The translations under genes were made by a program, and so were the position numbers. The notes under the pieces were generated by a model. That model was not told the origin of the DNA. It made no database searches and saw nothing but the letters and a program-made list of their open reading frames with translations. From the NCBI GenBank assembly GCA_016212085.1, contig JACRHL010000005.1, forward strand, positions 1 to 64,000: 64,000 nucleotides of DNA, given 5' to 3'. Source of the stretch: Nitrospirota bacterium. GTDB taxonomy: Bacteria; Nitrospirota; JACRHL01. Shown here in pieces: positions 26,649 to 37,200 of the stretch; position 1 is the stretch's first letter, and every line of letters starts with the position of its first letter.

Positions 26649-29876
<3,228 letters not shown>

Positions 29877-29895: not shown

Positions 29896-31029
29896 CTATT
29901 TTGCGGCCAGGCGGTAGTCCGCCATGAGGCCGATGAAGCGGTTGAACAGGTAACGGGCGTCGTGCGGGCCGGGGGCGGCCTCCGGGTGGTATTGCACGCT
30001 GAACGCGGGCAGCGTCTTGTGGCGCACCCCCTCCACGGTCTGGTCGTTGAGGTTGACGTGCGTCACCTCCAGGGTGTCGGGCAGGCTGTCCGGGTCCACC
30101 GCGAAGCCGTGGTTCTGGGCGGTGATCTCCACCTTGCCGGTGGCCAGGTCCATCACCGGCTGGTTGCCGCCGTGGTGGCCGAAGCGCATCTTGAAGGTGC
30201 GCGCCCCCAGCGCCAGGCACAACAACTGGTGCCCCAGGCAGATGCCGAAGATGGGCAACTGGCCCATCAGCCGGCGGATGCGGTCGGCGGCGTAGGGCAC
30301 CGCCGCCGGGTCGCCGGGGCCGTTGGAAAGGAACAGCCCGTCCGGGCGCATGGCCAGCACCTCGCCGGCGGGCATGTCGGCGGGCACCACGGTGACATCG
30401 CAGCCGTGGTCCACCAGGAGGCGTAGGATGTTGCGCTTCACCCCGTAATCGTAGGCCACCACCTTGAAGCGCGGCGCCGGGCGGGAGGCGCCCACGGAGG
30501 GCTGATTCCAGGCGTGGGGGGCGGCGCAGGTGACCGCCTTGGCCAGGTCCTGCCCCTCCATGGACGGGGCCGCCTGGGCCGCCGCCACCGCCGCCGCCAC
30601 GTCCGCCGCCGCCGGGCCGGACACGATCACCCCCTGCTGGGCGCCGTGGTCGCGGATGTGGCGGGTGAGGGCGCGGGTGTCGATGCCCTCGATGCCCGCC
30701 ACGCCGTGGCGCTTGAGGTAGCCGTCCAGATCCTCCTCGGAGCGGAAGTTGGAGGGCATGCGCTCCAGCTCGCGCACGATGAAGCCCGACAGGTACAGCC
30801 GCCCCGACTCGGCGTCGGCGGCGTTCACGCCGTAGTTGCCCTGGTGCGGGTAGGTCATGGTGACCATCTGCCCGGCGTAGGACGGGTCGGTGATGATCTC
30901 CTGGTAGCCGCACAGGGAGGTGTTGAACACCACCTCGCCGGCCACCGGCCGGTCGATGCTGGCGCCCACGGCGTAACCACGGAAGATGCGGCCGTCGGCC
31001 AGGGCCAGCAGGGCGGGGATGCGGCTCAT
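29896..31029 (-). CDS. carA: Carbamoyl-phosphate synthase small subunit
   Basis: The 377-residue glutaminase subunit releases ammonia for CarB. The start at 31029 overlaps the preceding gene by four bases (ATGA); the ORF-track version runs on through it. The N-terminal domain has [24 protein letters not shown]. The class I amidotransferase domain has the nucleophile in [10 protein letters not shown], with [12 protein letters not shown] carrying the catalytic His-x-Glu. It is fourth in the pyrR-pyrB-pyrX-carA-carB operon. Confidence 0.97.
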
Positions 31030-32356
31030 GCGCCACCCCCAAGGCCGGCGGCCACGGGCGGCGCCTCGGCGGCGAACACGGCTTGGCCGCCGATCAGGGT
31101 GTGGCGCACCCGCCCCGGCAGGGTGTGGCCCAGGAACGGGGTGTTGAGCCCGTGGCCGGACAGGGCGGCGCGGGTCACCTGCCAGCGGGCGCCCAGGTCG
31201 ACGACGCTCAGGTCGGCGGGCGCGCCCTCCGCAAGGGTTCCGGCGCCGGCGGGCGCCCCGAAGACTTGGCCGGGGCCCACGGTCCAGCGGGCGACGGCGG
31301 TGGGCAGATCCAAAATTCCCTCCTCCACCAGTAACAGCGTGAGTGACAATGCGGTGGCCAGTGCCGCCACGCCGAACGGCGCGTGGTCGAACTCCACCTG
31401 TTTCTCGAATTCGGCGTGCGGGGCGTGGCACGAGGCGATGACCGCCACCGTGCCGTCCGCCACCGCCTCGCGCAGGGCGCGGACATCCGCGTCCGAGCGC
31501 AGCGGCGGGTACACCTTGCCGTTGGTGTCGTACCCTTCCAGGAAGGCGTCGGTGAGCAGCAGGTAGTGGGGCGCGGTGCCGGCGCTCACCGGCACGCCGC
31601 GGCGGATGGCGTCGCCGAGCAGGCGCACCGAGCCGGCGGTGGACACGGGCGAGATGTGCACCCGGCAGCCGGTGAGCTCCGCCAGGGCGATGTCGCGCGC
31701 CACGGAGATCTCCTCGCTGGCGGCGGGGATGCCCGACAGCCCCAGGCGGGTGGACACCGCCCCCTCGTGCATCACGCCCTTGCCCGAGAGGCCCAGATCC
31801 TGCGGCACGGTGATCACCGGCAGGCCCACGCCGCGGGCGTATTCCAGGGCGCGGCGCATCATCTGGCTGCTGTCCACCGGCACCCACGCGTCGGACACCG
31901 CCGGGCAGCCGGAGCGCGCCAGCTCGCCCATCTCGGAGAGCACCTCGCCGGCCATGCCGCGGGTGAGCGCCCCCACCGGCAGCACGTGCGCGGCCCCGGC
32001 GGCGCGGGCCTTGGCGCGCACCAGCTCGCACACCGCCAGGGAATCCGCCACCGGGTTGGTGTTGGGCATGGCGAACAGCCGGGTGATGCCGCCCCTGGCC
32101 GCGTCCCCCGCCGCCTGGGCGATGGTTTCCTTGTATTCGTAGCCCGGCTCGCGCAGGTGCGCCTGGGTGTCGGTGAAGCCCGGCAGCACGTGGCAGCCGG
32201 CGGCGTCGAGGGTGGCGCCATGGCCCGGCAGCCTTCCCGGCTCGGCCACCATCGCCACCCGGCCGTCCACGATCAGCAGGTCGCGCGGGGCGTCGATGCC
32301 CGCCGCCGGGTCCACCAGGTGGCCGCCGACGATGCGGACGGTATGCTGTAACGCGC

Positions 32357-32360
<4 letters not shown>
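31026..32360 (-). CDS. pyrX: Dihydroorotase-like protein lacking metal ligands (PyrX / pyrC')
   Basis: The 444-residue protein has the class I dihydroorotase fold ([29 protein letters not shown]) but has lost the catalytic set. The DxHxH motif is DTQAH, SDDG is SDAW, the HxED region reads VPQD, the PHH motif is PHY, and the catalytic DHAPH is CHAPH. In Pseudomonas an inactive homologue encoded next to pyrB (pyrC'/pyrX) is needed to assemble aspartate transcarbamylase. The same role is inferred here from position and lost residues. Its start and stop overlap pyrB and carA by ATGA. An active PyrC should be encoded elsewhere. Confidence 0.85.
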
Positions 32361-33309
<949 letters not shown>

Positions 33310-33313
<4 letters not shown>

Positions 33314-33903
33314 GGCTGGCCTCCCGGATGGAGCACCACGCGGCTGACGTGATGGTCGCCGGTGAACCGCACGCGCACCCGGTCGGCGCGCTCGGTGGGG
33401 ATGTTCTTGCCGACGATGTCGGGGCGGATGGGCAGCTCGCGGTGGCCCCGGTCCACCAGCACCGCCAGCCGCACCCGGTCCGGCCGGCCGAAGTCCATGA
33501 GGGCGTTCAGGGCCGCGCGGATGGTGCGCCCGGTGAACAGCACGTCGTCCACCAGCAGCACGTCCTTGCCGGCGATGTCGAAGGGGATCAGGGTTTCCCT
33601 CAGCTCCGGCTGGTCCGCCCGCTCGCCCAGGTCGTCCCGGTACAGGGTGATGTCGAGCAGCCCCAGGGGGGGGCGGGTGCCGCTGATCTGGGTGATGAGT
33701 TCCACCAGCCGCTGGGCCAGATAGTCGCCGCCGGTGCGGATGCCGATCAGCGCCAGTTCCGCGTTGGGGTGACGGGTTTCCAGGGCCTCGTGGGCGATGC
33801 GGCGCAGCACGCGCTCGGCGGCCTCGCCATCGAGGATGGTGCGCCCCGCGGGGTCCTCGGCGCCCGTGTGCGCGGACGGCTGCTGTTCGATTGGCGGCGC
33901 CAT
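33310..33903 (-). CDS. pyrR: Bifunctional pyr operon RNA-binding regulator / uracil phosphoribosyltransferase PyrR
   Basis: The protein is 197 residues from the ATG at 33903. Its Shine-Dalgarno AAGGA is eight bases upstream and lies in the PyrR-binding hairpin. The PRPP loop [18 protein letters not shown] and LYRDDLGE are typical of PyrR. The C-terminal [23 protein letters not shown] also matches. UMP- or UTP-bound PyrR binds pyr mRNA in Bacillus and mycobacteria. Many Gram-negative PyrR proteins are thought to lack RNA targets, so the leader hairpin here is important evidence for regulation. Confidence 0.93.
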
Positions 33904-33945
33904 GGGGATGATCCTTCTCGGCCTCACGGGACCGGGTTAAAGGAC
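33904..33945 (-). promoter_or_regulatory. PyrR-binding RNA hairpin overlapping the pyrR ribosome binding site
   Basis: On the minus strand the leader contains CCTTTAACCCGGTCCCGTG followed by AGGCCGAGAAGGAT. It matches the PyrR site of Bacillus (CUUUAA, then GUCC, a GAGAGG-like loop and GAGAAGGAU) almost position for position. GGTC pairs with GGCC around the CCGTGA loop, and TCCTT pairs with AAGGA. The AAGGA strand is the pyrR Shine-Dalgarno sequence. Binding should therefore block translation rather than act through a terminator, and no terminator is visible. Confidence 0.85.
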
Positions 33946-33978
33946 GTGCGTAATCAATGACTCGATTGGAGCCTATCC

Positions 33979-34007
33979 ATGTTAAGGAGATCGGCCGGTC
34001 CGGTCAA
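33979..34007 (-). promoter_or_regulatory. Predicted promoter of the pyr operon
   Basis: On the minus strand TTGACC (plus 34002-34007) and TAACAT (plus 33979-33984) are 17 bases apart. A start near 33972 would give a leader of about 70 nt that contains the whole PyrR hairpin. Confidence 0.5.
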
Positions 34008-34068
34008 GGGAGCGCCGCCCCCGTCGGGCGGTGGATTTTTCGGCCATCGGCAAGCGGGGGGTTTGGGG

Positions 34069-34074
34069 TATAAT
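34069..34074 (+). promoter_or_regulatory. Candidate -10 element for gltBD
   Basis: A perfect TATAAT stands in the divergent pyrR-gltB region, with no good -35 at standard spacing. Transcription from here would give gltB a GC-rich leader of about 150 nt, including GCCCG/CGGGC long-range pairing before an AT-rich stretch. I recognise no known riboswitch in it. A hairpin CCGCCC/GGGCGG at about 34016-34032 lies just upstream. Confidence 0.35.
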
Positions 34075-34227
34075 ACCTGATCCAGGGGTCAATCCGTTCG
34101 TCGACGATGCCCGTTTCCGGCCGCCGGCCAGTGCCGCCGGGCCGGCCTTGGGGCACCGGAACGGTGCGCGACCTCCGGGCATGTTTTGTTAACGAGACGA
34201 CACGTTATATAAGCCAACGGTTCGAAT

Positions 34228-37200
34228 ATGTCATCCAAGGATAACCACCCGCGCCCGTCCGGCGGCCTGTACCGCCCCGAGAACGAGCACGATGCCTGCG
34301 GCGTCGGGTTCGTCACCCACATCAAGGGGGTGAAATCCCACGGCATCATCAAGGACGGGCTGCAGATCCTGAACAACCTCACCCACCGTGGCGCGGTGGG
34401 TGCCGACGCGGATTCCGGCGACGGCGCGGGCATCCTCATCCAGCTGCCCGATGCGTTCATGCGCAAGGTGGCGGGGGTCGACCTGCCCCCGGCGGGGCAG
34501 TACGCCGCGGGCGTGGCGTTCCTGCCCACCGAGGTGGACCAGCGCAACCGCTGCGAGCTGGTGATCGAGCAGTTCGTGGCCAACGAGGGCCAGCGTTTCC
34601 TGGGCTGGCGCGACGTGCCCACGGACAACTCCGTCATCGGCGCCGTGGCCAGGCAGGAGGAGCCGGCCATCCGCCAGTTCTTCGTGGCCGCCGAGCACGT
34701 CACCGGCAACGCCTTCGAGCGCAAGCTGTACGTGATCCGCAAGCAGGCCGAGCGCACGGTGCGCGGCCTGGGCATCGGCCAGGGGCACTACTTCTACATC
34801 CCCAGCCTGTCCGCCAACACGCTGATCTACAAGGGCCAGCTCATGGCCCACCAGGTGGCCCCGTATTACCCGGACCTCACCGATCCGGACATGGTCTCCG
34901 CCATCGCCCTGGTGCACCAGCGCTACAGCACCAACACCTTCCCCACCTGGGGTCTGGCGCAGCCGTTCCGCTTCATCGCCCACAACGGCGAGATCAACAC
35001 CATCACGGGCAACCGCCACTGGATGCAGGCGCGCGAAAGCCAGCTCGAATCCGGCCGCTTCGGCCGCGACATCGGCAAGCTGCTGCCCATCATCGAGCCG
35101 CGCATGAGCGACTCGGCCAGCTTCGACAACGTGTTCGAGCTGCTGGTCATGGCGGGCCGCTCGCTGCCCCACGCGGCCATGATGATGATCCCCGAGGCGT
35201 GGGGCCGGCACGACGAGATGCCCCAGGAGCGCCGCGACTTCTACGAGTTCCACGCCAAGCTCATGGAGCCGTGGGACGGGCCGGCGGCCATGGCCTTCAC
35301 CGACGGCCGCATGGTGGGCGCCACCCTGGACCGCAACGGCTTGCGCCCGGCGCGCTACATGGTCACCAAGGACGATCGTATCATCATGGCCTCCGAGGCC
35401 GGCGTGCTGGACGTGCCGCCGTCCCAGATCGTCAGCAAGTGGCGCCTGCAACCGGGCCGCATGTTCCTGGTGGACACCGTCCAGGGCCGCATCATCGACG
35501 ATGTGGAGGTGAAGCAGGAGATCTCCGCCGCCAAGCCGTATGGCCGCTGGCTCAAGTCGAACCAGCTGCACCTGGCCCGGCTCGACCTGTCGCCGGTGGT
35601 GCCGCCGCTGACCGGCGAGGAGTTGCTGGCCCACCAGCGCACCTACGGCTATTCGGACGAGGATCTCAAGGTGATCCTGGGGCCCATGGCCCTGGAGGGG
35701 CAGGAGCCCGTCGGCTCCATGGGCAACGACACCGCGCTGGCGGTCCTGTCGGACAAGCCGCAGTTGCTGTACAACTACTTCAAGCAGCTGTTCGCGCAGG
35801 TGACCAACCCGCCCATCGATCCGATCCGCGAGGAGATCGTGATGTCCACCGGCTGCGCCATCGGTTCCGAGCAGAACCTGTTGCGCGCCAGCCCCATCAG
35901 CGCGCGCCGCATCCGCCTCGAGACGCCGATCCTCAGCAACGAGGAGCTGGCCAAGATGCGTTCGGTGAAGCTGTACAACATCAAGACCGTCACCCTGCCC
36001 ATGCTGTTCAACGCCACCGACGGCGCGACGGGCATGGAGGACGCCATCGACCGCCTGTGCGAGAAGGCGGAGGATGCCATCCAGAACGGCTGTACCATCC
36101 TCATCCTGTCGGACCGGGGCGCCACCCGCCGCAAGGCCCCCATTCCCAGCCTGCTGGCCACGGCGGCGGTGCACAACCACCTGATCCGGAAGGGGCTGCG
36201 CACCCGCGCCGGCTTCGTGGTCGAGACCGCCGAGGCGCGCGAGGTGATGCACTTCGCGCTGCTGCTGGGTTATGGCGCCGGCGCCATCAACCCCTATCTG
36301 GCGCTGGACACCATCAACGCGCTGTGCGACACGGGCCTGATCCCCGCCGACAAGCCGGTGGAGAAGTGCCACGCCAACTACGTGAAGGCGATCACCAAGG
36401 GGCTGCTCAAGGTCATCTCGAAGATGGGCATCTCCACCGTCCAGAGCTACCGCGGCTCGCACCTGTTCGAGGCCATCGGCCTCACCACCGAGGTGGTGGA
36501 GCGCTACTTCACCGGCACCGCCTCGCGCCTGGAGGGCATCGGCATCGCCGAGATGACCGAGGAGACCCTGCGCCGCCACCGCAAGGCGTTCCCGGCGCGC
36601 CCGGTGCCAAGCCTGCCCCTGGAGCACGACGGCCAGTACCAGTGGCGCCGCGGCGGCGAGTTCCACCAGCTCAACCCGGACGTGGTGGCCACCCTTCAGG
36701 AAGCGGTGCGCCGCAACAGCTTCGAGACCTTCCGCGACTACTCGCGCAAGGTGAACGAGGCCAGCCGCCGCTATGCCACCCTGCGCGGCCTGATGGACTT
36801 CAAGTTCGCCAAGCAGCCGGTGCCCCTGGACGAGGTGGAACCCGCGTCGGAGATCGTCAAGCGCTTCGCCACGGGGGCCATGTCGTTCGGCTCCATCAGC
36901 AAGGAGGCGCACGAGAACCTGGCCATCGCCATGAACCGCATCGGCGGCCGCAGCAACACCGGCGAGGGCGGCGAGGACCCGGATCGCTTCAGCCGCGACG
37001 CCAACGGCGACCTGCGCCGCAGCGCCATCAAGCAGGTGGCCTCCGGCCGCTTCGGGGTGACCAGCCACTACCTGACCAACGCCGACGAGTTGCAGATCAA
37101 GATCGCCCAGGGCGCCAAGCCCGGCGAGGGCGGCCAGTTGCCGGGCCACAAGGTGGACGCCGTCATCGCCAAGGTGCGGCACGCCACCCCCGGCGTGGGC

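Follow-up and report, generated by a model that had tools for sequence, protein, structure and literature searches.

The pyr operon and its host

The window, a stretch of 64,000 nucleotides, carries on its minus strand a pyr operon headed by pyrR (33310..33903), which encodes a 197-residue protein of the bifunctional PyrR/uracil phosphoribosyltransferase family (NF003549, 214 bits against a cut-off of 138). The best solved relative of this protein is 1ufr, annotated as 'pyr mRNA-binding attenuation protein' (E 7.6e-53). Downstream on the same strand lie pyrB (32357..33313), encoding aspartate carbamoyltransferase; a pyrX-like (pyrC') gene (31026..32360; TIGR00857, 322 bits); carA (29896..31029); and carB (26649..29876; 1075 residues), the last two named from their own sequences alone. 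The GTG start of pyrB overlaps the pyrR stop codon by 4 nt (GTGA), the pyrX-like gene overlaps pyrB and carA overlaps the pyrX-like gene by 4 nt each (ATGA in both cases), and carB begins 19 nt past the carA stop codon. The chain of overlapping genes from pyrR to carA described in a first-pass annotation of this DNA is thus borne out, and because of these overlaps repression of pyrR could spread along the operon by translational coupling.

The dihydroorotase homologue at 31026-32360 looks like a non-catalytic PyrC'/PyrX, judging from the metal ligands it has lost: DTQAH stands in place of DxHxH, VPQD in place of AHAED, HISP in place of HICH and SCHAPH in place of TDHAPH. The reference for this loss was an intact pyrC found elsewhere in the genome (G000:C14:39204-40418; L112).

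The host belongs to the phylum Nitrospirota, since it shares its phylum with a relative recorded as 'Nitrospirae bacterium' (JAHFEP010000036.1), and its earlier description as a proteobacterium is therefore withdrawn. The class of the host is represented by four sampled genomes, all from one family and from four genera, and its wider relatives share only the phylum with it.

A PyrR binding-loop hairpin over the pyrR Shine-Dalgarno sequence

The intergenic region between pyrR and a divergent gltB-like ORF (1514 residues) holds the pyr leader, in which a predicted PyrR binding-loop RNA hairpin occupies positions 33911..33944 of the minus strand. Read from 33944 to 33911, its successive segments are UCCUU, UAA, CCCGGUC, CCGUGA, GGCCGAG, AAGGA and a final U. 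The lower stem pairs UCCUU (33944-33940) with AAGGA (33916-33912), and the upper stem is formed between 33936-33930 and 33923-33917 and has a single C-A mismatch in the window copy. The hexaloop CCGUGA (33924..33929) has C, G, G and A at loop positions 1, 3, 5 and 6, which are invariant in 37 aligned relatives, as is the UUUAA segment. The 3' arm of the lower stem, AAGGA (33912..33916), is the Shine-Dalgarno sequence of pyrR and lies 8 nt before the pyrR ATG at 33903, as the first-pass annotation had proposed. The likeness to the Bacillus PyrR site that it pointed out also holds, the UUUAA, NUCC, GNGAGG and AAGG elements being common to both.

The Rfam model RF00515 gives the hairpin 26.9 bits against a gathering score of 54, so that the above-threshold covariance match suggested earlier as a check formally failed; the model spans 115 positions, for the full attenuator, and the hairpin matches positions 4-37 only, which form the binding loop. 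Among 14 control genomes, RF00515 gave weak matches in nine, including Escherichia coli, and exceeded its cut-off in two. As RF00515 alone was too weak, a dedicated 34-nt covariance model (R1) was built from a gapless alignment of 34 related pyrR leaders from which the class of the host was excluded. R1 matches the hairpin (33944-33911, minus strand) with 44.0 bits, at E values of 4.1e-8 for the window and 1.7e-6 for the 2.70 Mb genome, and a search of this genome with R1 for a second PyrR site found none, leaving the hairpin as its sole match. R1 also detected this element, at the same place, in each of the three sister genomes sampled from the class.

Base pairing in the stems is conserved through covariation of the two helices. 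Across 37 relatives aligned without gaps, standard pairs fill 90.1% of the pair cells; the share drops to 78.3% on shuffling and does not exceed 55.9% with the partner slid. Double changes, affecting both bases of a pair, number 69, against 22.8 on shuffling. With its conserved loop and internal-loop sequences (UUUAA and C-N-G-N-G-A), its covarying two-helix stem and its location 5' of pyrR and the pyr operon, the hairpin in front of pyrR is real and matches the PyrR binding loop, to which PyrR is predicted to bind.

Within the class, the arrangement of AAGGA 6-9 nt before the pyrR start is kept in all four genomes. This conservation bears on whether the site could be vestigial, with the hairpin a relic and PyrR acting only as a uracil phosphoribosyltransferase. 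Residues aligned with T41, H140, R141, R146 and K152 of Bacillus subtilis PyrR, which we take, as a lead only, to be those assigned a role in RNA binding by mutagenesis, are kept in the window protein, and the positions aligned with T18, R27 and R42 differ (R34, T43 and G58). The changes at some of the presumed Bacillus RNA-contact residues would fit a relic, but the hairpin persists, its stem differences compensated, across four genera with PyrR proteins only 63-70% identical to that of the window, and a vestigial site is scarcely credible.

Promoter, leader and start codon

The only minus-strand promoter-like site in 33250-34300 is TTGACC-17-TAACAT (33979..34007), which predicts a transcription start near 33972 and places the beginning of the hairpin about 28 nt downstream. 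Similar promoter-like sites, with 9-10 of 12 matches, lie upstream of the hairpin in three sister genomes. A pyr leader of approximately 70 nt, as first annotated, is consistent with this site at 34007-33979. The divergent gltB-like gene is preceded on the plus strand by a promoter-like site (TCGGCA-16-TATAAT) and, close to it, a terminator-like hairpin, both within 34013-34074.

The start codon of pyrR is constrained by its surroundings. PyrR of the window has an N-terminal extension of approximately 20 residues (33841..33903, minus strand), and no in-frame ATG, GTG or TTG occurs between the ATG at 33903 and the conserved PyrR core; upstream of 33903, the sole further in-frame start is a GTG inside the hairpin loop. 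There being no alternative usable start, the ATG at 33903 has to be used. All four class genomes have the extension, as do four genomes of another Nitrospirota family, f10, that show the direct arrangement, and its sequence differs among them.

The same leader bears on transcription attenuation of the Bacillus type, in which PyrR would alter the choice between antiterminator and terminator. The protein family and the binding loop are those of Bacillus, and most relatives do have a leader terminator between hairpin and pyrR; here, however, a scan of 33250-34300 found no terminator-like site on the minus strand, all four class genomes lack a terminator in the interval from hairpin to pyrR, and the gap from hairpin to start codon is only 8 nt. 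The terminator and alternative antiterminator of a Bacillus-type attenuator are thus absent from the leader, and attenuation is a very improbable account of it.

Proposed mechanism

UMP-dependent translational repression of pyrR, with pyrB, pyrX and carA coupled behind it, is very probably the best explanation of this arrangement, and we infer the binding, the UMP effect, the repression and the coupling from what the PyrR family does. When UMP is plentiful, PyrR-UMP would bind and stabilise the hairpin, closing the pyrR Shine-Dalgarno sequence, and ribosomes would then fail to initiate at the pyrR AUG. The overlapping downstream genes would fall with pyrR by translational coupling, to which decay of the mRNA or Rho polarity may add. 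Under UMP scarcity PyrR would come off, allowing ribosomes to melt the hairpin, which is marginally stable, and the operon would be expressed.

Folding predictions made in the absence of protein give the lower-stem pairs of the window leader, up to AUG+3, probabilities of 0.96-1.00, and the hairpin is dominant at every length of this leader that was folded. Extending the fold to AUG+40 leaves three of the class's four members with a dominant predicted structure other than the hairpin, and for one member (L004) the hairpin is predicted to be minor even in the leader up to AUG+3. Because folding predicts that in the window sequence the hairpin masks the Shine-Dalgarno sequence by itself, some of the effect may be independent of PyrR. 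The strong predicted pairing would also suit two other readings: a hairpin that lowers pyrR translation constitutively, and a PyrR whose binding, once translation is blocked, matters chiefly by way of mRNA stability or Rho-dependent polarity. The second is favoured in that Rho commonly targets the untranslated mRNA of long operons. Plain masking of a Shine-Dalgarno sequence would not, however, need unpaired loop positions and a UUUAA segment that are invariant across phyla, and these alternatives are considered unlikely, though less so than a relic or an attenuator.

Leader layouts in Nitrospirota and other diderms

A PyrR site (E 0.1 or better) is present in 153 of 198 sampled Nitrospirota genomes, and the PyrR protein in 187 of them. 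Three layouts were distinguished. In the first, found at most sampled loci outside the class of the host and f10, the hairpin, whose 3' arm is a Shine-Dalgarno sequence, is followed by a short ORF, an intrinsic terminator and pyrR. The leader ORF crosses the terminator in many of these loci, with peptide endings such as ..EEVFFC and ..GEGFFVP, and some loci (for example L151 and L152) have a terminator with no such ORF. The terminator U-tract lies within the ORF in many Nitrospirota loci, L007, L012, L020 and L022 among them, and the leader peptide there often ends near FF or VFLC. Such crossing of the U-tract suggests, by analogy, ribosome-driven antitermination as proposed for Thermus.

The second layout is that of f10 (L187-L205), in which the leader terminator is absent from 18 of 19 loci. 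The ORF under the hairpin overlaps the pyrR start by an exact NTGA in 12 of the 19 loci, an overlap with a single-locus chance of 0.04-0.18 in loci that are related and hence not independent; in three further loci the ORF is close to pyrR but does not form this overlap, and in four it is pyrR itself. The f10 leader ORFs with their Shine-Dalgarno sequence under the PyrR site have 17-58 codons, and the 4-nt overlap with pyrR occurs in 12 of the 15 non-fused loci. The loop region of the PyrR site is altered (CAGGACUGAGAGCCUG) at four f10 loci (L015, L202, L204 and L205), and these loops may represent a sub-type of PyrR recognition loop. In the third, direct layout, the ORF controlled by the hairpin is pyrR with its N-terminal extension, and this arrangement is found in four of four genomes of the class and in 4 of 19 f10 loci.

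In one sampled genome (G017), a contig other than the one bearing pyrR holds another PyrR site of equal strength (49.6 bits; G017:C113:17556-17589, plus strand), which may indicate that a further gene is regulated or that a contig is duplicated.

Judging from nearby start codons, the arm of the hairpin serves as a Shine-Dalgarno sequence well beyond the class of the host. In other Nitrospirota, an ATG lies 5-11 nt past AAGG in 34 of 59 loci, compared with about five expected, and among named loci of other, mostly diderm lineages an ATG at Shine-Dalgarno distance occurs in 19 of 29, compared with about one expected. The corresponding count in Bacillota is 10 of 30 loci, with about four expected. 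PyrR sites also lie 5' of pyrR in named Desulfuromonadales, Nitrospinota, Omnitrophota, Zixibacteria and Meiothermus. In many diderm lineages outside Nitrospirota, too, the ribosome-binding sequence under the hairpin is that of a short leader ORF, with a terminator usually following.

The layout of the window looks like a derived, fused end-point. Its probable source is the more common Nitrospirota arrangement, in which a hairpin over the Shine-Dalgarno sequence of a leader ORF precedes a terminator: the terminator would have been lost and the leader ORF joined to pyrR. We propose that the N-terminal extension of PyrR is a remnant of the ancestral leader ORF fused to pyrR, and the direct layout would then represent fusion after terminator loss, the direction of change being the one we infer.

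Relation to known PyrR systems

Direct translational repression by PyrR is known from Mycobacterium smegmatis (Fields and Switzer, 2007). There PyrR reportedly acts on pyrR translation at its own leader, which has no terminator. The two systems would share a PyrR acting at its own leader with no terminator, and differ in phylum, in the N-terminal extension of the window PyrR and in the relatives of the window, which point to an origin from a leader ORF. The window has a PyrR site over the Shine-Dalgarno sequence of the first gene and no leader terminator, the features that define the mycobacterial type, and on these features it is a predicted case of direct PyrR translational repression of the M. 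smegmatis kind in a new phylum.

In the pyr leader of Thermus ZO5, a ribosome translating a leader peptide reportedly prevents terminator formation (Van de Casteele et al., 1997). The same PyrR and site family is involved, and the order of hairpin, Shine-Dalgarno sequence, leader ORF and terminator is found in Meiothermus (L042) and in most sampled Nitrospirota. A distinct leader ORF that continues into a terminator ahead of pyrR, as many other Nitrospirota have, is absent from the class of the host, in which the regulated start is that of pyrR. With Bacillus attenuation (RF00515) the window shares the binding loop, whereas the antiterminator and terminator are absent.

In Geobacter, a 35-bp element upstream of pyrRBC-carAB (Gmet_P1768/GSU1269.1) was listed in 2009 as a conserved sequence, with no mechanism given (PMC2700814); it resembles the present case in being a conserved element 5' of a Gram-negative pyrR operon with a length similar to that of the binding loop. 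A 2026 review treats PyrR control as a Gram-positive mechanism and assigns other means to Gram-negatives (PMC13328217), and among the titles it cites is one on PyrR-dependent translational repression of the pyr operon in M. smegmatis. That a PyrR RNA circuit in a Gram-negative would be a rarity, as the first-pass annotation held, is weakened by the sites in most sampled Nitrospirota and in other named diderms and by the Geobacter element (PMC2700814). Neither the translationally coupled f10 variant nor a translation-linked PyrR site across diderms with stepwise loss of the attenuator was found described in the literature examined, most classical PyrR papers lying outside its scope.

Sequence evidence thus places PyrR RNA sites across Nitrospirota and in several diderm lineages, mostly tied to translation starts, and this wider diderm pattern is more interesting than the window's own switch. 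We lean towards the view that in diderms the PyrR site serves fundamentally to switch translation of a leader ORF, and that in Nitrospirota attenuation gave way to direct repression at least twice, by fusion in the class of the host and in f10 through a 4-nt overlap, a close ORF or pyrR itself. The intermediate layouts would offer a way for one regulator and one RNA site to pass from transcription attenuation to translational repression.
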